In this document: one piece after another, positions 2,975 through 31,193 of the stretch
Numbering within the stretch: position 1 is the stretch's first letter
Layout of the letters: each line of letters starts with the position of its first letter
Source of the DNA: a virus
Reading direction: 5' to 3' (one strand)
Length of the DNA stretch: 35,139 nucleotides
Virus record (IMG/VR): IMGVR_UViG_3300037493_003714
Span: 1-35,139 of that record
Made by a program: the position numbers and the translations under genes
Notes under the pieces: model-generated
Database searches by the model: none
What the model saw: only the letters and a program-made list of their open reading frames with translations
Told to the model about the DNA's origin: nothing

Positions 2975-3395
2975 GATCGCCTCCATTCCGAGCGCGAGTT
3001 GCGCCCTCAATCACCTCGACCACCTCGACGCCGCGCGACGCCCGCGTGACGTACTGCCCGCCGTCCCACGCTTCGACGCGGTGGGCCGTGGGCCGCTCGC
3101 GCAGCAGACGAGCGCACTCGCGGTACGCCTCGTCTGACGTGCCCTCGCCGCCGATCAAATACGGGATGACGATGCGCGCGCCGTCGTCGTGCTCGGCCAC
3201 GTAGCGCATCACGCCTCCACCGCCGGCGCGCATAACGCTGCTCGCCTGCTCCGCGCTCAGCCCCGCGCGCACCAGCGCAGCGAACAGATGCAGCTGCGTC
3301 GTCGTCTCCAGTCGCTCCGCGACGCGCCTGCACGCGCACGGGTCGTCCGCTGCCCACGGGCGCTTGCACAGCGCGCACTTGCGCGGCGCGCTCAC
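2967..3395 (-). CDS. Hypothetical protein with N-terminal CxxC...CxC motif (142 aa)
   Basis: GTG at 3395 overlaps the previous stop (GTGA). The N-terminus contains CALCKRPWAADDPCACR, a likely zinc knuckle. Then come a helical region (RLETTTQLHLFAALVRAGLSAEQASSVMRAGG) and a beta-rich part (VMRYVAEHDDGARIVIPYLIGG), ending acidic/hydrophobic (GVEVVEVIEGA). I do not recognise a family. Its position directly before the exonuclease in the same operon suggests an early function connected to recombination or host takeover. The much longer open frame upstream of 3395 is Arg-rich, overlaps two other genes and is rejected as the start. Confidence 0.6.
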   Translation of the reverse strand: MSAPRKCALCKRPWAADDPCACRRVAERLETTTQLHLFAALVRAGLSAEQASSVMRAGGGGVMRYVAEHDDGARIVIPYLIGGEGTSDEAYRECARLLRERPTAHRVEAWDGGQYVTRASRGVEVVEVIEGATRARNGGDHG

Positions 3396-3610
3396 GCGGC
3401 CCTCCGCACGAGGTACGCCGCCATCGCCTCGACGGTCGTCTCGTCCACCGCGCACAGCACGCCGCGGGGCAGAGCGCGCACGACGACGCCGGGGCGCCAC
3501 ACAGCGTCCGCGCCGTGGGCCTGAGGGATCTGCACCTCGACGCGCGTCCCGACCGCGAGCGCGCGCGCCCACTTCGGGCGGCGCATCTCCGCCATGCTCG
3601 GGGCGCTCAC
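3392..3610 (-). CDS. Hypothetical small protein, SH3-like barrel candidate (72 aa)
   Basis: GTG at 3610 overlaps the upstream TGA (GTGA), and its own TGA overlaps the next GTG. The sequence has alternating hydrophobic residues (VGTRVEVQIPQ, WRPGVVVRALPRGVLCAVDE) that look like a small beta barrel of the KOW/SH3 kind, followed by a short helix (VEAMAAYLVRR). The fold is inferred from pattern only; no family is recognised. The tight coupling to both neighbours supports it being real. Confidence 0.55.
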   Translation of the reverse strand: MSAPSMAEMRRPKWARALAVGTRVEVQIPQAHGADAVWRPGVVVRALPRGVLCAVDETTVEAMAAYLVRRAA

Positions 3611-3798
3611 AGCGCACCGCCAGGATTGCGCCGGTCGAGATCCGCGAGATCGCCGCCGAGCAGCTCGTAGGCCGCCCGCGTGTGCTCGCGGATGATCGCG
3701 TCATCGTAGGAGCACGACTGAATCAGCGCCATGTAGAGGTGGACGCGCGCGGCCTGAGCCGGCGGCAGCACGTCGGTTGCACGGGCGGCGCGGCTCAC
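3607..3798 (-). CDS. Hypothetical small helical protein (63 aa)
   Basis: GTG at 3798 overlaps the stop of the upstream Cys-rich gene (GTGA). The product is helical: a leading basic segment, then PPAQAARVHLYMALIQSCSYDDAIIREHTRAAYELLGGDLADLDRR when read in two parts. No family is recognised. The frame extends further upstream, but those residues are Arg-rich and overlap the Cys-rich gene, so the coupled GTG is preferred. Confidence 0.5.
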   Translation of the reverse strand: MSRAARATDVLPPAQAARVHLYMALIQSCSYDDAIIREHTRAAYELLGGDLADLDRRNPGGAL

Positions 3799-15909: not shown

Positions 15910-16550
15910 GCAGCGTCCGCATCAAGCGCGAAGGGCTGCACAACACGCACTCTGCGCTCGGGCTCAAGCTCATGCTGCGGCGCGAGGCGCTCGATCACGT
16001 CGGCAAGGCGAGCGCCCGGGTGCTCGACCTCTTCGCCGGGCCGGTCGGCGAGATGTGGGCCGGGTGCTGGAGCCAGGCCGCGGACTACCTCGGCGTCGAC
16101 GTCGAGTATCGCCCCTTCGATGCGCGCCGCCGACTTGTGGCGCCATGGTCGATGGCCGTGCAGTCCCTCGAACTCGACGGCTGGAACATCATCGACCTCG
16201 ACGCGTTCGGCTCGCCATGGGGTGCAGCCGCGCGGCTGTCTGAGCGATGGCGGCCCGCGGAAGGTGCGCGCGTCGCCGTGGTCACAACTGACGGCAGCTG
16301 GCGCGCGGTGCGGACCGGGCGCGTGCTGACCATCGACGCCGACCTCCGGCGCCTCGGCTGCGTGCAGGCGCCGCGTCGGTACGAAGGCCGAGGCGAGATG
16401 TCGCGCGCAGGGCTGACCGCACTGGCGAAGCGCTGCGGAATCAAGATTGACGCCCTGCGCGTCCGAGGCTCGGACGCGCAGGGCGGGTCTGGCGGATCGT
16501 CCGCGCTGGTCTACTCGCTGATGACCGGCACCGTCACGAGGGGCAGCTGA
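15906..16550 (+). CDS. Rossmann-fold methyltransferase-like protein with a Trm1-like motif (214 aa)
   Basis: GTG at 15906 overlaps the ParB-like stop. SAM-binding features are ARVLDLFAGPVGEMWAG (motif I) and YLGVDVEYRPFD (acidic end of strand 2). IIDLDAFGSPW (motif IV, near residue 97) recalls the D-x-D-P-F-G-S-P of Trm1-type tRNA guanine methyltransferases. A late strand ends the fold (ALVYSLMTGTV). It is shorter than Trm1 and lacks its C-terminal domain. Substrate could be RNA, DNA or another phage component; the ParB partner makes DNA plausible. A long perfect hairpin lies in its 3' part. The gene is convergent with the DUF5131 gene, overlapping by 40 nt. Confidence 0.6.
   Translation: MSSVRIKREGLHNTHSALGLKLMLRREALDHVGKASARVLDLFAGPVGEMWAGCWSQAADYLGVDVEYRPFDARRRLVAPWSMAVQSLELDGWNIIDLDAFGSPWGAAARLSERWRPAEGARVAVVTTDGSWRAVRTGRVLTIDADLRRLGCVQAPRRYEGRGEMSRAGLTALAKRCGIKIDALRVRGSDAQGGSGGSSALVYSLMTGTVTRGS
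16451..16485. repeat. Perfect 16-bp inverted repeat inside the methyltransferase-like gene
   Basis: The arms 16451-16466 and 16470-16485 are perfect complements (CGCCCTGCGCGTCCGA and TCGGACGCGCAGGGCG) around a GGC loop. The repeat lies about 65 bp before the stop, near the end of the convergent gene on the other strand. No T-tract follows in either direction, so it is not a standard terminator, although it could stop or pause converging transcripts. Confidence 0.8.
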
Positions 16551-17365
16551 CGGCGCGCGCGCGGGTCTCGGTGCACGTACTCACCGTCGGGCATGGCGCC
16601 CGCGTGCGACGGCATCTCGTCCCACGTGCGCCCGTCGAAGTCGCGGCCCGCGCTGCCCGGCTTCGTGCCGCCCCACTGCTTCCACCAGAACGCCACGCCG
16701 GCCGCCGTGCACTGGTCGCGCAGCTCGCGAGCCCACGGCTTCCGATCCTCGCGCACGTCCCACCCCTTCACGGCGCGCCGCACCATCCCGCGCTCTTCGG
16801 CGATGTGCTCGCGCGCCATGTGTACGCCGCTCTCGCCGCCGCCGATCACCCAATGGATGCCCGCCAGGTCGATCGGGCCGATCGCGCCGATCAGCGGCTC
16901 ACACGACAGGAATCGCACGCGAGCGTCGATGCTCCGCAGCGCGTCGATGCGCCACACAGTTGCCGCGTGCTCGACGCTGGCCCCGAGCCACACGGACGCC
17001 GGGACCGGTCGCGACGCGAAGAACGCCGCCGCAGCGTCGGGGCGCTTCGTCAGCACCTGATAGCGGTGATGCCCGTAGCGCTCCATCGCCTCGCAGATGC
17101 TCTCGCGGTAGCCGTCCGAGATCTTCTCGTGGAACATGTCGGTCATGGAGTTCGTGAAGATGAGCGAGGCGCGCTTGACTTTCCGAGGCTCGTCCAGCTT
17201 CCACGGCTTCTCGACCACATCGAAGCCGACCGGGAACGCGGGCGTCCCGCGCTTGTTCTCGGCCAGCGATTCCGCGTAGCAGTGTTTGCAGCCCGCGCTG
17301 ATCTTCGTGCAGCCGCTCGCCGGATTCCACGTGAGTTCGGTCCAGTTGATCTTCGTCTCGTTCAT
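16511..17365 (-). CDS. DUF5131 phage Gp37/Gp68-family protein (284 aa)
   Basis: ATG 17365 (MNETKINWTELTWNPASGC) has GGGAG nine bases upstream. A TTG further upstream also opens the frame but is less likely. The Cys cluster CTKISAGCKHCYAE near residues 20-33 has the radical-SAM-like C-x-x-x-x-x-x-C-x-x-C pattern. Later segments, TNSMTDMFHE, YQVLTKRPD, WLGASVE and WVIGGGESG, are characteristic of the Gp37/Gp68 family as known from many phages. The end (WWKQWGGTKPG) is also typical. Its reaction is unsettled; a radical-SAM-type modification of DNA or protein is an inference. It is the only leftward gene among the rightward late genes, in convergent overlap with the methyltransferase-like gene. 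Confidence 0.88.
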   Translation of the reverse strand: MNETKINWTELTWNPASGCTKISAGCKHCYAESLAENKRGTPAFPVGFDVVEKPWKLDEPRKVKRASLIFTNSMTDMFHEKISDGYRESICEAMERYGHHRYQVLTKRPDAAAAFFASRPVPASVWLGASVEHAATVWRIDALRSIDARVRFLSCEPLIGAIGPIDLAGIHWVIGGGESGVHMAREHIAEERGMVRRAVKGWDVREDRKPWARELRDQCTAAGVAFWWKQWGGTKPGSAGRDFDGRTWDEMPSHAGAMPDGEYVHRDPRARRQLPLVTVPVISE

Positions 17366-17433
17366 GGTGCGCCGCTCCCAACGGCAATCCAAGAGTATCA
17401 GCTAACTACTCGACATTCCACAGGATTCGACCG
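17366..17433. promoter_or_regulatory. Divergent intergenic region between the DUF5131 gene and the late genes
   Basis: This AT-richer 68-bp stretch separates the two start codons. It holds an inverted repeat GAGTA/TACTC (17393-17397 and 17407-17411) around a 9-nt loop, and a possible minus-strand -10 box GATACT without a good -35 box. For the late genes I see only an AGGA ribosome site before 17434. Late promoters are often phage-specific, so absence of a consensus is not surprising. Confidence 0.35.
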
Positions 17434-19355: not shown

Positions 19356-21044
19356 ATGGCGAAGAATCGACCCGGCTCGACCGCCTCCGTGGCCTTTGCG
19401 CAGGCGCCCGCGCTCGCGGCAAAGCCGATGCTCGGCATGAGCGCGCCCGAGATCGAGCGCCTGGTCGTGCCGAAGGCGCTACGACAGATCGACACGAATC
19501 TGCTCCAGGTGACTCCTGGCGGCATCGACTCCGCGCTCTCGAATCGCGAGCAGGGCTACCCGCAGAAGTGGGTCGATCTCTGCGACCGGATGCAGACGAA
19601 CCCGACGCTGTCGTTCGCCTTCGAGACGCGCAAGCGCGCCGTCGCGGGGAGGCCGCTCAACGTCGCCGAGCCCGACGATGTGCCGCCTGAACTGCGCGGA
19701 TACGCGCGCGAGGCCGCCGCGCTGGTCAAGGAGTGGCTGGCAGGCATCGGCGATCTCGAAGCGTTCGTGATGCGCATCATGGATGCGTGGATGTCTGGCC
19801 TTCACGTCTCCGAGCTGATGTGGGAGCGCCGCCACGGAGTGTGGCTGCCGACGCCGGCGCAGGTCTACACGCGCGAGTGCGAGTGGGACTGGGACAACAC
19901 GGTCAAGTGCCGCGGCGCCGACTACCGGTGGGTTCGCACGGCGGACCACCCGAGCAAGTTCCTTGCCTTCGTGCCGCAGACGTCGGGCCGATCCCCTGCG
20001 TGCCAGGGCATCGGCGATCGTGTCGTCTGGTACTGGTTCATGCTCGGGACGTCGATCAAGTTTTGGATGATCGCGGCCGAGCGCTTCGGGTCGCCTCTCG
20101 CGGTGGCGAAACTCGCGAGCGAGAGCAACGCGGAGACGCGCGGCGCCATCGCGCTCCAGCTTCAGTCGCTGATGACGACGAGCACAGCCGTGCTCACCGG
20201 AGACGACGCGCTCGAGATCATCGACGGGAAGGCGGCGGGCACGGCGGGCGTGTGGTCCGAGCTTACCAAGCTCTTCACCGACCAGATCTGTTACGGAGTC
20301 GGCACCACTCCGGACGTGCTCATGGTCGGCCCGAACGGCCTCGGCAGCGCCGGCACGAACGCACGCGACGGGGTGCGGCTCGAGAGCAGTAAGCTCGACG
20401 CGAAGATGGTGTGTGCGGCGCTCTCGCAGATCGCGCGCTGGGTCGTGTGGTGGAATCTGCGCCGAGACGACTCGCGCGGGCTGCCGCTGTTCAGCGTCCA
20501 GTTCGACGACGCGCGGACGGTGAGCGCGCAGGCCGTCTCCGCAGGCGTCGTGCGCAAGAACGAGCTGCGCGCGGGCGAGGGCCTGCCGCCGCTGGCCGAT
20601 GGCGGAGACGCGTTTGTCGTGACGACCCCTGCGCCGGTCGGGCTTCCTGGCACTGCCTACGATCCGAACGCCGAGCCCGATGGCGTGAAGGTCGCAGACG
20701 CCGCGCTCAACGGCGCGCAGGGCATGATGCTATCGGCCGTGATCAAGGACGTCGCCGCGGGCCTCATGCCGCGCGACTCCGCCATCGCGCAGCTCATGCT
20801 GATGTTCCAGGTGTCGAGCGAGCGCGCGACCGAGTTGCTCGGCTCCGCTGGCGCCGGCTTCGTCCCCGCGAATCCCGCAACCGGAACGCCCGCTGTCGTG
20901 CCGCCGGCCGCTGCTGCGCCACCGACTCCGATCACGCCCGGCGCGCCGCCTGCCCCGCTCTCCACTGACGCGCCCGGGAGTGCGCCCGCGGCCTCCCCTT
21001 TCCCTCCCTCGCCACGCTCGGCGGGTGGGATGCCGACGCTCTAG
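19356..21044 (+). CDS. Portal protein, DUF935 / Mu gp29-like
   Basis: 562 aa from ATG 19356 after GGAGG. Conserved DUF935 features include QKWVDLCDRMQTNPTLSFAF, AFVMRIMDAWMSGLHVSELMW, HPSKFLAFVPQT, WYWFMLGTSIKFWMIAAERFG, LQSLMTTSTAVL and GTNARDGVRLESSKLDAKMV. The zero frame ends in a Pro/Ala-rich segment and TAG 21044. The -1 frame, open from 20969, contains a helical region resembling the usual DUF935 C-terminus and runs straight into the gpF-like gene. A CCCTTTC slippery heptamer lies in frame at 20996-21002. The portal forms the head-tail vertex through which DNA is packaged. Confidence 0.88.
   Translation: MAKNRPGSTASVAFAQAPALAAKPMLGMSAPEIERLVVPKALRQIDTNLLQVTPGGIDSALSNREQGYPQKWVDLCDRMQTNPTLSFAFETRKRAVAGRPLNVAEPDDVPPELRGYAREAAALVKEWLAGIGDLEAFVMRIMDAWMSGLHVSELMWERRHGVWLPTPAQVYTRECEWDWDNTVKCRGADYRWVRTADHPSKFLAFVPQTSGRSPACQGIGDRVVWYWFMLGTSIKFWMIAAERFGSPLAVAKLASESNAETRGAIALQLQSLMTTSTAVLTGDDALEIIDGKAAGTAGVWSELTKLFTDQICYGVGTTPDVLMVGPNGLGSAGTNARDGVRLESSKLDAKMVCAALSQIARWVVWWNLRRDDSRGLPLFSVQFDDARTVSAQAVSAGVVRKNELRAGEGLPPLADGGDAFVVTTPAPVGLPGTAYDPNAEPDGVKVADAALNGAQGMMLSAVIKDVAAGLMPRDSAIAQLMLMFQVSSERATELLGSAGAGFVPANPATGTPAVVPPAAAAPPTPITPGAPPAPLSTDAPGSAPAASPFPPSPRSAGGMPTL
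20996..21002 (+). other. CCCTTTC -1 slippery heptamer at the portal/gpF overlap
   Basis: In the portal frame the codons are TCC CCT TTC, giving X-XXY-YYZ as C-CCT-TTC. A -1 shift here continues with PSLATLGGWDAD and is open to the gpF stop at 21991. The overlap of the two frames is 20969-21044. The heptamer type and register are canonical; use in vivo is unproven. Confidence 0.55.
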
Positions 21045-21163
21045 CCGCTGACGTCCCCGACTTCGCCGACGTCCTATCGCTCGCCGATGCGCCCGCGGCG
21101 ACGCGCGCGAAGGCCACGATCGGGCGGCCTTTCGAACTCGCCGCGCGTACGACCATCGCGGCG

Positions 21164-21991
21164 GTGCCCGCCTTCGCTCCGGTGCGTGACGCCATCGCAT
21201 CGGCCGCGCTCGACGGCCCCGACGCGGTAGCCGCAGCGGTCGCGCGCTTCCGCGGAGACGACACGCTCGAGCGGCTCACCTACGAGCCAATGGTGCTGGC
21301 CGACCTCGCCGGCCAGATGTTCGTGCGCCTAGTAGAGCTCGCGCCAGGCGGCGCAGAGCGGCACCTCGCCTCACCCGTCGCGCTCCCTGCGTTCCTTCGC
21401 TTGCCCTTCGACGAGGCGATCGACTTCTTCACGCGACGCGGCGGAGATCCCGCGCTCGTCGACGAAGTGCTCCGCGCGTATCGCCGCCGGTCGTCTCAGT
21501 ACACGGACGACCAGCTCGACACGATCAGCCGCGCCGCAATCGCGGAACTGCAACGCACGCTCGACGAGGGCGGCACGCTGCAGGACTTCCGCGCCGCCAT
21601 CCGCGACGAGTCCGCGTCGCTCGGGATCACGGCGGCGGACCCGCGGTATCTCGAGAACGTCTACCGCACTCAGGTCGCATCGGCCTACGGCGCCGGGCGC
21701 TGGGCGCAGATCAACTCTCCGGACGTGACCGCATCGCGCCCGTACAGGCGCCTCTCGACCGCGATGGACTCGCGCGTCTCGCCCGATCACGCGCTCATGC
21801 AGGGCGTCGTGTGGCGTCACGACAACCCCGCATTCACTGGCGTCGCACCGCCCTTCCGATGGCAGTGCCGGTGCGCTCTGACGACCGCGAGCGACGCAGA
21901 CCTCGCCGCCCACGGATGGACCGTAAGCGACGCGCCTCCCGCGGGGTTCGCCGTCACCCCGGGCTTCGGCTCCGCCTCTTTTGTGCGCTGA
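21164..21991 (+). CDS. Mu gpF-like minor head (head morphogenesis) protein
   Basis: The only ordinary start near the beginning is a GTG at 21164, which lacks a Shine-Dalgarno sequence. The same frame is open and protein-like from 20969 (WDADALAADVPDFADVLSLA, ELAARTTIAAVPAF). Part of this upstream and early text resembles the DUF935 C-terminus. The MuF domain follows: PFDEAIDFFTRRGG, a helical stretch with EGGTLQDFRAAI, RYLENVYRTQVASAYGAGRW, DSRVSPDHALMQGVVWRHDNP and PFRWQCRCAL, the signature of the Mu F family. Such proteins sit at the portal inside the head. It may be made as a separate protein or as a portal fusion by -1 frameshifting. Confidence 0.85.
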   Translation: MPAFAPVRDAIASAALDGPDAVAAAVARFRGDDTLERLTYEPMVLADLAGQMFVRLVELAPGGAERHLASPVALPAFLRLPFDEAIDFFTRRGGDPALVDEVLRAYRRRSSQYTDDQLDTISRAAIAELQRTLDEGGTLQDFRAAIRDESASLGITAADPRYLENVYRTQVASAYGAGRWAQINSPDVTASRPYRRLSTAMDSRVSPDHALMQGVVWRHDNPAFTGVAPPFRWQCRCALTTASDADLAAHGWTVSDAPPAGFAVTPGFGSASFVR

Positions 21992-23540: not shown

Positions 23541-25043
23541 ATGGACGCCGCATCGACTGGCGCGCTCGACGATGTGTACCTCGTCGCCCGCCCTGACGGC
23601 CGACCAGGCTTCTATGCGCTCGCGAAGCTCCCGCACGTGTCGGAGAAGGCGCCGCAGCGCTGGGTCCACATGGCGCGCGAGGGGCTGTGGAAGGGCCACC
23701 ACTCCGGCCACGAGATCGAACTGACGCGCGAGGTCTTCGAGGCATTCGTCGAGCGTTTCAACGCGACAGCGAACCCGCCCGCGGCCAAGCGCGGTCACCC
23801 CGAGGGCGACGACTTCGCCGCCGCTGGCTGGGTGCTCGACGTCGAGATTCGCGACAACGGCCTGTGGGGCCTCGTCGAGTTCACTCCGAGCGCGGCAAAG
23901 CAGATCGCCGAGGGCGAGTACCGCTACTGCTCGATCGAGTTCGCGCTCGCCTCCATCGACCGAGAGACGGGCGAGCCGGCGGGACCCGTCCTCTCTGGAC
24001 TCGGGCTGACTAACGTTCCCTTCATCGACGGGCTCACCCCGATCACTCTCTCGCGCGTCGGGAATCCCGCACACGCACAGCAAAGGACTCTGAGCATGGC
24101 AATGGAACCCGAAAAGGTGATGCAGCAGATGGCCAAGGATCTTGGCCTCAAGGGAGACGCGGCCATCGCCGCGATCCGAAAGCGCTTCGACGCGATCGCC
24201 GCGTACATGGAAGCGATCGCAGAGAAGCCGAGCGAGGGTCCGCCGCCGTCGCTCGACGCCGTTGCAGCCGACCCCGTGAAGGCGAGTGCGTTCGGCAAGC
24301 GCGCCGCACTCGCACTCGCCGCGATCGACACGGTGAAGAAGTGCGCCGAAGACCTCATGGACACGCCGGCCGATGCGCAGGGCGAGGCCGAGTGCGCGAT
24401 GGTCTGCGACAAGCTCATGTCGCTGACGGGCCTCGACGCCCCCGCGCTCGTCGCTGCCATCGAAGCCAACGGCGACGCGCTCAAGGCTCTACTCGCGGTC
24501 GGAGCGGCCTCGGGCATGCCGAGTGACGCCATCGCCGCCGCGTCTGCTGCCTCGGCGCTCTCGGCGAAGAACGCCGAGATCAAGCTCGTCATGCAGAGCA
24601 ACGCGGCTCTCGGCGCGCGGCTCTCTGTGCTCGAGTCGGACAACGCCGCGCTCAAGGCGGAGAAGGCCGCCGCGCTCAAGGCATCGGAAGACGCCACGAA
24701 GGAGGCCGCGATCGGCGACCTCATCAAGTTCGCGATCGAGCAAGGGCACGCGATCGAATCTCAGCGCGCCGAGCTCACCGACTACGCGCGCGCCTGCGGA
24801 GTCGAGAAGGCGCGCGCCTTCGTGCTCACGCTCGCCGCTCCTCCGGTGGGAGCGATCACCAAGGACGCCACGGTCGCCTCGGGCGCGAAGCTGCCACCGA
24901 AGGCGGAGGATGCCAACGCCGACCTCGACGTGACCCCGCGCGACGACGCCGAACGCGCAGTGCTCGCGAAGCTCTCGGCGTCGCCGAAGAAGACGAAGGC
25001 GTGGGCACTAGCCCATCACCGAACGAAGAACACCTCGGCCTGA
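23541..25043 (+). CDS. Head maturation protease with scaffold, Mu gpI-like (500 aa)
   Basis: ATG at 23541 after GGAGG. Residues 1-175 carry the gpI-type protease features: GLWKGHHSGHEIELTREVF, KRGHPEGDDFAAAGWVLDVE, GLWGLVEFTPSAAKQIAEGE, YRYCSIEFAL and LSGLGLTNVPFIDGL. The catalytic residues are not assigned here. The remainder is a long Ala/Lys/Glu helical, coiled-coil scaffold (AALGARLSVLESDNAALKAE, KAAALKASEDATKEA). A start inside the gene at 24096 has its own ribosome site. The protease cleaves scaffold and head protein during capsid assembly. It precedes the cement and major head genes as in Mu. Confidence 0.85.
   Translation: MDAASTGALDDVYLVARPDGRPGFYALAKLPHVSEKAPQRWVHMAREGLWKGHHSGHEIELTREVFEAFVERFNATANPPAAKRGHPEGDDFAAAGWVLDVEIRDNGLWGLVEFTPSAAKQIAEGEYRYCSIEFALASIDRETGEPAGPVLSGLGLTNVPFIDGLTPITLSRVGNPAHAQQRTLSMAMEPEKVMQQMAKDLGLKGDAAIAAIRKRFDAIAAYMEAIAEKPSEGPPPSLDAVAADPVKASAFGKRAALALAAIDTVKKCAEDLMDTPADAQGEAECAMVCDKLMSLTGLDAPALVAAIEANGDALKALLAVGAASGMPSDAIAAASAASALSAKNAEIKLVMQSNAALGARLSVLESDNAALKAEKAAALKASEDATKEAAIGDLIKFAIEQGHAIESQRAELTDYARACGVEKARAFVLTLAAPPVGAITKDATVASGAKLPPKAEDANADLDVTPRDDAERAVLAKLSASPKKTKAWALAHHRTKNTSA
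24096..25043 (+). CDS. Internal in-frame start for a scaffold-only protein (315 aa)
   Basis: ATG at 24096 (MAMEPEKVMQQMAKDLGLKG) is in frame with the protease and follows AAAGGA by nine bases. The protein would contain only the helical scaffold part. Mu (gene Z) and lambda (Nu3) use this nested arrangement. The site and register are visible; its use is inferred. Confidence 0.6.
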   Translation: MAMEPEKVMQQMAKDLGLKGDAAIAAIRKRFDAIAAYMEAIAEKPSEGPPPSLDAVAADPVKASAFGKRAALALAAIDTVKKCAEDLMDTPADAQGEAECAMVCDKLMSLTGLDAPALVAAIEANGDALKALLAVGAASGMPSDAIAAASAASALSAKNAEIKLVMQSNAALGARLSVLESDNAALKAEKAAALKASEDATKEAAIGDLIKFAIEQGHAIESQRAELTDYARACGVEKARAFVLTLAAPPVGAITKDATVASGAKLPPKAEDANADLDVTPRDDAERAVLAKLSASPKKTKAWALAHHRTKNTSA

Positions 25044-30204: not shown

Positions 30205-30804
30205 ATGACACACGAATCCGACCCGACAAAGAACCTGCGCGTCCACGTCTCCTTCGATCCCGCGATCGATCGCGAGGCGATGGGCGAAGACTTCGCGCGC
30301 CATTTCGGCACCATCGCAGAGACCGCAAATCAGGTCACGAGCGGGCACGGAAACCGCGACGTGAAGCTGATCAAGGTCATCAACGGCATGGCGCCCACAG
30401 TCTTCGAGATCCGCCCGCTGACATCCTTCCAGCGCGCGGGCGTCGACGCGATCCCTGAGTCGCACGGGCCGTCCTCTCGCTGGCTCTCCGCGCTCCAATA
30501 CGCGTTTGTCTCGTGCACCCTGGGCCAGCCGCTCGCGGGGCGCACGGAGACGTTCCTCCCGCTCTCCGGTGACGCCGGTAGGCTCTCGACGCACGCGCTC
30601 GACATGATCGGCGAGAGCGTCTCCACCGAGGCGCTGCTCGAGATCGGAGCGGTGGCCTACGCGCGGAGCAAGCTCGATTTTTTCGGCGTGGCCTTTGCGC
30701 CGCTGCCGGCTACCTCGGCGCTCGTGCTCCTTCGAAACTTCCCACGCCGTGTGGCCACCCAGACGGCGACCGGATCCGGCACTACGACCACAAGCGAGGT
30801 CTGA
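30205..30804 (+). CDS. Tail assembly chaperone G-like protein (199 aa)
   Basis: ATG at 30205 after GGAGG. Mixed alpha/beta protein (LRVHVSFDPAIDREAMGEDF, VKLIKVINGMAPTVFEIRPL, RWLSALQYAFVSCTLGQPL) with the C-terminus turning Thr/Ser-rich. A TTTTTTC slippery heptamer at 30678-30684 (codons GAT TTT TTC, residues 158-160) would shift into the -1 frame and give a 329-aa fusion with the following ORF. This is the lambda G/GT arrangement for tail chaperones located before the tape measure gene. Confidence 0.6.
   Translation: MTHESDPTKNLRVHVSFDPAIDREAMGEDFARHFGTIAETANQVTSGHGNRDVKLIKVINGMAPTVFEIRPLTSFQRAGVDAIPESHGPSSRWLSALQYAFVSCTLGQPLAGRTETFLPLSGDAGRLSTHALDMIGESVSTEALLEIGAVAYARSKLDFFGVAFAPLPATSALVLLRNFPRRVATQTATGSGTTTTSEV
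30678..30684 (+). other. TTTTTTC -1 slippery heptamer in the tail chaperone gene
   Basis: Codons GAT-TTT-TTC give T-TTT-TTC in the correct register. The -1 frame has no stop from here through the next ORF (to 31193). A GC-rich hairpin (CGGCG 30684-30688 with CGCCG 30698-30702) starts at the last base of the site. This is a canonical tail-chaperone frameshift setting. Confidence 0.65.
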
Positions 30805-30818
30805 GTGTCGGCGCGCAA

Positions 30819-31193
30819 ATGGGCGCCATCGACGTGCGCCGAGCGTGGCACTGCGACTGCGACTCGCGCTCGCACCTTGACCCCGTACGCCGCGTCTCCG
30901 CGGCTGGCGCCGCCGTGGGCCGCATCGTCGCAGGCATCGAGACGGTGACGGGCGTAGAGCCAACGTCGTGCCCGTGGCGGTCCTACGGCGACCCCGTGGT
31001 GTCTGCCGCCATGACGCTGCGCAGTCGATGCGAGCAGGGTACCGTGATGATCGACGAGCAGATCGCCGTCGTCGTCGAGGCGCTGGACGCGTGCGAGCGG
31101 GCGCGGTCGACGGTCGAGGCGCTGGACCGACGCATGGAGCGCGAGAAGCGCGACGCAGAGCGCAGGGCGAACGCGGCGAAGAACGGAGGCTGA
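30819..31193 (+). CDS. T-like downstream ORF of the tail chaperone pair (124 aa as a separate ORF)
   Basis: The first ATG is 30819, with no good ribosome site, 14 bases after the stop of the previous gene. The frame is open far upstream, into the previous gene (GHPDGDRIRHYDHKRGLSVG in the overlap). The protein has ARRAWHCDCDSR-type Cys residues near the start (WHCDCDS) and a C-terminal helix (ALDACERARSTVEALDRRME). It is most likely made as the C-terminal extension of the upstream chaperone by -1 frameshifting. In lambda the T part binds the tape measure protein, and here the tape measure gene follows directly. Confidence 0.6.
   Translation: MGAIDVRRAWHCDCDSRSHLDPVRRVSAAGAAVGRIVAGIETVTGVEPTSCPWRSYGDPVVSAAMTLRSRCEQGTVMIDEQIAVVVEALDACERARSTVEALDRRMEREKRDAERRANAAKNGG

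Follow-up and report, generated by a model that had tools for sequence, protein, structure and literature searches.

A predicted programmed −1 frameshift joining the portal and MuF genes in a family of Mu-like phages

The portal and MuF reading frames

The window analysed here covers an IMG/VR virus record in full (35,139 bases). It contains a head module in the Mu-like order of terminase, portal, MuF, two small ORFs, Mu-like protease and gpT-like major head protein, in which the MuF gene adjoins the portal gene. Just before the terminase genes lies a DUF5131 gene on the minus strand (16511–17392, E=9e-76). The portal–MuF region has the following features.

19356–21044, plus strand: Mu-like portal gene, frame 0, 562 aa, with the SD sequence GGAGG upstream
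20966–20968, plus strand: TGA that bounds the open −1 frame shortly before the slip site; in many relatives a stop lies equally far from it
20976–20982, plus strand: SD-like GGGAGTG, 15–16 nt 5′ of the heptamer, located by an anti-SD pairing scan; GGAGGTG or GGGGGTG in most relatives
20996–21002, plus strand: slippery heptamer C_CCT_TTC in the portal register
21002–21991, plus strand: −1 part of the predicted fusion, 329 codons and TGA
21017–21034 (+21 to +38), plus strand: nearly invariant block CTCGGCG..TGGGATGCC, within the zone of suppressed synonymous variation
21042–21044, plus strand: portal TAG stop, frame 0; position not conserved (+46 in the window, +118 to +157 in relatives)
21164–21166, plus strand: GTG, the first ATG/GTG/TTG of the −1 frame; rejected as a start
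21545–21880, plus strand: MuF (gpF, PF04233) domain, the sole copy in the record

The portal matched Portal_Mu (PF06074) in Pfam with 137.5 bits against a cut-off of 23.9 (E=8e-40). Its C-terminal end in frame 0 consists of a Pro/Ala-rich linker followed by a short Ser/Pro-rich tail. Before the linker, the portal of the window carries an additional segment of helical appearance (LNGAQGMMLSAVIKDVAAGLMPRDSAIAQLML, 20640–20860) that is absent from two full-length relatives, L003 and L004, and from relatives with portal stretches of about 480 residues. The original prediction had ended the portal at the TAG at 21044, and ORF analysis reproduced this to the base. It had also described the gpF frame as open from 20969, with no ATG, GTG or TTG until a GTG at 21164 that lacks a ribosome site. 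This description held: the −1 frame overlaps the portal ORF and is open from 20969 to a TGA ending at 21991, and the sequence 5′ of the GTG, CGTACGACCATCGCG, is not SD-like, unlike the GGAGG at the portal start. The GTG was rejected as the MuF start because it has no SD sequence, lies inside the conserved protein and is not common to all relatives. The downstream ORF thus has no usable start of its own. The Phage_Mu_F domain (PF04233) occupies residues 193–304 of the −1 frame, with 59.4 bits against a cut-off of 29.6 (E=7e-16). One portal and one MuF were present per record in the eight records checked, the window portal being the sole one in its record, so frameshifting was the only route to MuF that we found.

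The slippery heptamer

The heptamer C-CCT-TTC was located in register at 20996–21002, as predicted. In ten window genes (3621 codons), the only in-register XXXYYYZ heptamers were this CCCTTTC and the TTTCCCT overlapping it. The sole other in-register heptamer noticed in the window was a TTTTTTC outside the ten-gene set, at 30678. It belongs to a tail-chaperone-like pair, an ORF at 30205–30804 and a −1 frame at 30582–31193 with a 223-nt −1 overlap, just 5′ of a tape-measure-like ORF, which is the arrangement of a typical G/GT frameshift. The motif C_CC.U_UU.C is listed among the high-level −1 frameshift motifs measured in E. coli (PMC4066793). A scan of genome contigs found no relatives and so gave no host; we therefore applied the E. 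coli slip rules by assumption, both tRNA re-pairings (CCU to CCC and UUC to UUU) being standard. When the local portal codons were shuffled, an in-register heptamer arose by chance in 26% of cases, and CCCTTT in 0.9%. The argument from a single genome is therefore weak, and the case rests on the relatives.

Conservation of the offset and heptamer among relatives

A first search with the −1 product returned the two full-length relatives L003 and L004, which are 65% identical to it and have exactly the layout of the window. Their −1 products aligned with that of the window over the whole length, from the heptamer onward, while their frame-0 stops lay elsewhere and their portal cores were only 39–40% identical to the window's. 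A first DNA-pattern search contained the heptamer, which made it circular for conservation, and it was replaced by a protein alignment starting after the heptamer. Protein search with the sequence 3′ of the heptamer gave 50 relatives, none of them selected for the heptamer. The readable sequences spanning the site numbered 48, window included, and represented 32 distinct genes, which came from over 30 environmental datasets.

Alignment of related phages had been proposed as a check of the prediction, and its outcome was uniform. The −1 offset was present in 48 of 48 sequences, CCCTTTC was in register in all 48, and the frames were fused in none. The bases at −4 to −1 and at +7 and +8 varied around the heptamer, while its seven bases did not. 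Homologues that lack the heptamer and start gpF separately would have spoken against frameshifting; they occurred only outside the family, in ordinary Mu-like phages at 25–31% identity. The portal and MuF genes of the 32 relatives held seven other in-register heptamers in 22,881 codons, compared with 32 of 32 at this site. The overlapping TTTCCCx was lost in many relatives, so CCCTTTC is the conserved slip site. Counted from the codon with the first heptamer base, the frame-0 tail of the relatives spans 16 to about 53 residues. These non-shifted tails are Ser/Thr-rich, and most end in basic sequences such as RRRVFAR or RRAYRQ. A further result of the comparison is that, throughout this phage family, gene callers either split MuF or assign it a wrong start.

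Selection at the nucleotide level

Synonymous variation in the −1 frame was 0.036 over the first 16 codons after the heptamer versus 0.36 from codon 40 to the end, about ten-fold lower. None of 20000 permutations gave a value as low as 0.036, nor did any other interval. The frame-0 tail overlaps the −1 frame for 46–157 nt. This overlap accounts for part of the suppression; the strongest block, from +21 to +38, is nearly invariant nonetheless, and may be a 3′ signal. From the heptamer to the GTG, dN/dS between the window and L003 was 0.20/0.60, and purifying selection was seen in both frames.

The upstream SD-like element and the 3′ region

The strongest anti-SD site within 500 nt lay at −21 to −13 in 31 of the 32 genes, usually as GGAGGTG. 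The GGGAGTG of the window is weaker than the sites of the relatives, with 7 of 500 scanned windows stronger. The Gly codons at the site are GGA or GGG and GGT in the 32 genes, compared with GGC for 84% of the Gly codons in these portals. SD-like sequences of the types GGAG, GAGG and GGNGG located 6–17 nt upstream stimulate frameshifting experimentally (PMC4066793), and the spacing of 15–16 nt found here falls inside that range.

We looked for a 3′ RNA structure by folding single sequences, by a consensus fold, by counting pairs and by a hairpin search under published criteria; none of these showed a signal above the GC-rich background. A qualifying hairpin lay 3′ of the heptamer in 29 of 32 genes versus 52 of 64 control places, the pair counts gave no covariation for a stem, and an Rfam search had no match. 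A codon-usage switch model fitted the heptamer in the window, but its optimum lay about 80 nt upstream in L003 and L004, which counts against the frameshift reading.

The N-terminal segment of the −1 product

The −1 frame up to about 21320 had been read as a DUF935-type portal C-terminus followed directly by the MuF domain. The MuF domain was confirmed by the Pfam match given above, but the DUF935 part did not reach significance. In a profile comparison of the first ~115 residues with the portal C-termini of ordinary Mu-like phages, a match appeared at the expected place with a probability of 3.8% (E=0.011). The correspondence is attractive by position, and we regard it as unproven. The AlphaFold model of the −1 product had a pLDDT of 40 and was not used for fold search, and a sequence search of the PDB matched nothing. 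The segment before the MuF domain was the best-conserved part of the product, with about 75% identity between the window and L003.

Divergent relatives

In three records with 18% portal identity (L106–L108), MuF comes after a Portal_Mu ORF and is encoded in the −1 frame alone. The overlap contains an A9C run (region 2380–2520 in L106), and no start occurs before a TTG deep inside the MuF frame. These three records, one lineage, may hold an independent portal–MuF frameshift with another slip site, which we note only as a lead. In L102, whose portal is 34% identical, MuF is missing from the whole 33.8-kb record. In L084, a GIY-YIG endonuclease ORF (3100–3660) occupies the expected place of MuF between the portal and the Mu-like protease, and MuF is absent there. 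The absence of MuF next to the portal in L084 and from the L102 record fits a useful but dispensable part.

Interpretation and alternative explanations

The same offset and in-register heptamer in 32 genes, the suppressed synonymous variation and the conserved internal SD strongly support the first of two alternatives in the original prediction, a programmed frameshift. The frame offset, the missing start, the invariant heptamer, the nucleotide-level selection and the SD element were all established by comparison of sequences; that ribosomes shift here, and how often, is inferred. Portal and MuF very probably belong to one expression unit, in which a programmed −1 ribosomal frameshift links the two frames and would yield both a portal and a portal–MuF fusion. 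The predicted products are the 562-aa portal and an 878-aa fusion (549 + 329 residues), with the predicted Asp-N junction peptides DAPGSAPAASPFPSLATLGGW for the fusion and DAPGSAPAASPFPPSPRSAGGMPTL for the portal.

The explanation that survives best beside this one accepts the shift as real and differs on its lasting product, which would be scarce free MuF. Either the adjacent Mu-like protease would cut the fusion after assembly, or fusion would only keep MuF scarce. A Mu-like protease gene does lie downstream (23541–25043), and the linker before the junction is variable, Pro/Ala-rich and presumably flexible. The absence of MuF near the portal in L084 and from L102, together with the dispensability of SPP1 gp7 for assembly (PMC6316719), implies that strict stoichiometry may not matter. 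However, the conservation of the −1 N-terminal segment argues for a role while the domains are joined, and no cleavage motif was identified. We consider this explanation unlikely, though a real contender.

A separately translated MuF, started at the GTG at 21164 or at a non-standard codon by coupling to portal termination, is highly improbable. Mu-like phages such as MP29 normally have overlapping portal and MuF genes, the latter in the −1 frame and starting at an ATG of its own, and an SD-like sequence is present upstream. Yet the window has no ATG, GTG or TTG between the upstream stop and 21164, the starts of the relatives differ or sit far inside the conserved protein, and the residues 5′ of the GTG are under purifying selection. 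The SD lies at −20 with no −1 frame start codon at initiation spacing, and the portal stop shifts by more than 100 nt between relatives while the heptamer stays in place.

Transcriptional slippage joins frames in some bacterial genes, and the A9 run of the remote relative L106 lies at the equivalent place, but as the cause of the frame change here it has very little probability: CCCTTTCCC is not a long homopolymer, no conservation is seen in the G runs close to the SD, and the conserved SD-like sequence would be left unexplained. The second alternative of the original prediction, that a one-base indel, assembly error or gene decay split an originally fused gene, can be excluded even though a single long protein can be read across the two frames, because 32 distinct genes, taken from over 30 datasets, share the −1 offset, both frames are under purifying selection and no relative is fused.

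Proposed mechanism and comparison with known systems

Under the programmed frameshift, most ribosomes would pass C_CCU_UUC in frame 0 and stop soon after, producing the portal with its short Ser/Pro-rich tail. Some ribosomes would be held by pairing of the 16S rRNA to the SD-like sequence ~15 nt 5′ of the heptamer, the Pro and Phe tRNAs would re-pair from CCU/UUC to CCC/UUU, and translation would go on in the −1 frame. In the resulting fusion, the MuF domain and, before it, a probably helical segment would stand in place of the portal tail. Such fusion subunits may then be built into the portal ring as a minority of its members. One or a few MuF domains would thereby be tethered inside the head covalently rather than by binding, and the tethered MuF may act in DNA delivery.

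The arrangement resembles the tail assembly chaperones gpG/gpGT of lambda type and 17.5/17.5* of SPP1 in that two structural-module products would arise in a set ratio by a −1 shift, with the heptamer in register close to the 3′ end of the first gene. It differs from gpG/gpGT in that the products are portal and MuF of the head module. The site lies between the terminase and Mu-like protease genes, not between the major tail and tape measure genes, and the genome has its separate G/GT-like site. Like the bacterial −1 signal of dnaX type, it has an internal SD 5′ of an X_XXY_YYZ heptamer, but here the heptamer is C_CCU_UUC, the SD spacing is longer and there is no demonstrated stem. The −1 frameshift of the phage A2 major head protein, as cited in PMC10885494, likewise allows a head gene to supply a second essential capsid component; there the gene encodes the major head protein rather than the portal, and the second domain is another one.

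In SPP1, the MuF gene (gp7) also lies 3′ of the portal gene (gp6), but gp7, which has an SD and a start of its own, is made separately and binds the portal, whereas MuF here would be covalently attached. By analogy with gp7, if a minority of ribosomes made the covalent fusion, the number of MuF copies would be similarly low and no binding step would be involved. The ordinary Mu-like phages (MP29, Rhodovulum phage P1 and L005–L013) share the gene order and the domains, and their gpF is often in the −1 frame. They differ in having a complete portal C-terminus, a portal stop and a gpF ATG, so that a slip site is not needed. As gpF remains a separate gene with an ATG start in these phages, the portal–MuF frameshift arrangement looks derived.

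The mechanism is a known one and the portal/MuF gene context is new; a literature search for portal or MuF frameshifting found no earlier case. We tentatively propose, at somewhat less than even confidence, that the ring is a deliberately mixed oligomer in which frameshifting sets the count of subunits linked to an ejection protein, a solution that would have arisen more than once (with C_CCU_UUC here and the A9 run in L106–L108). MuF proteins bear toxin cargo in other phages (PMC5576092), and a covalent tether to the portal would therefore be relevant to cargo loading. If the frameshift is real, portal/MuF would join the short list of phage genes linked by programmed frameshifting, and would offer a genetic explanation for how a twelve-subunit portal comes to bear one or two copies of MuF.
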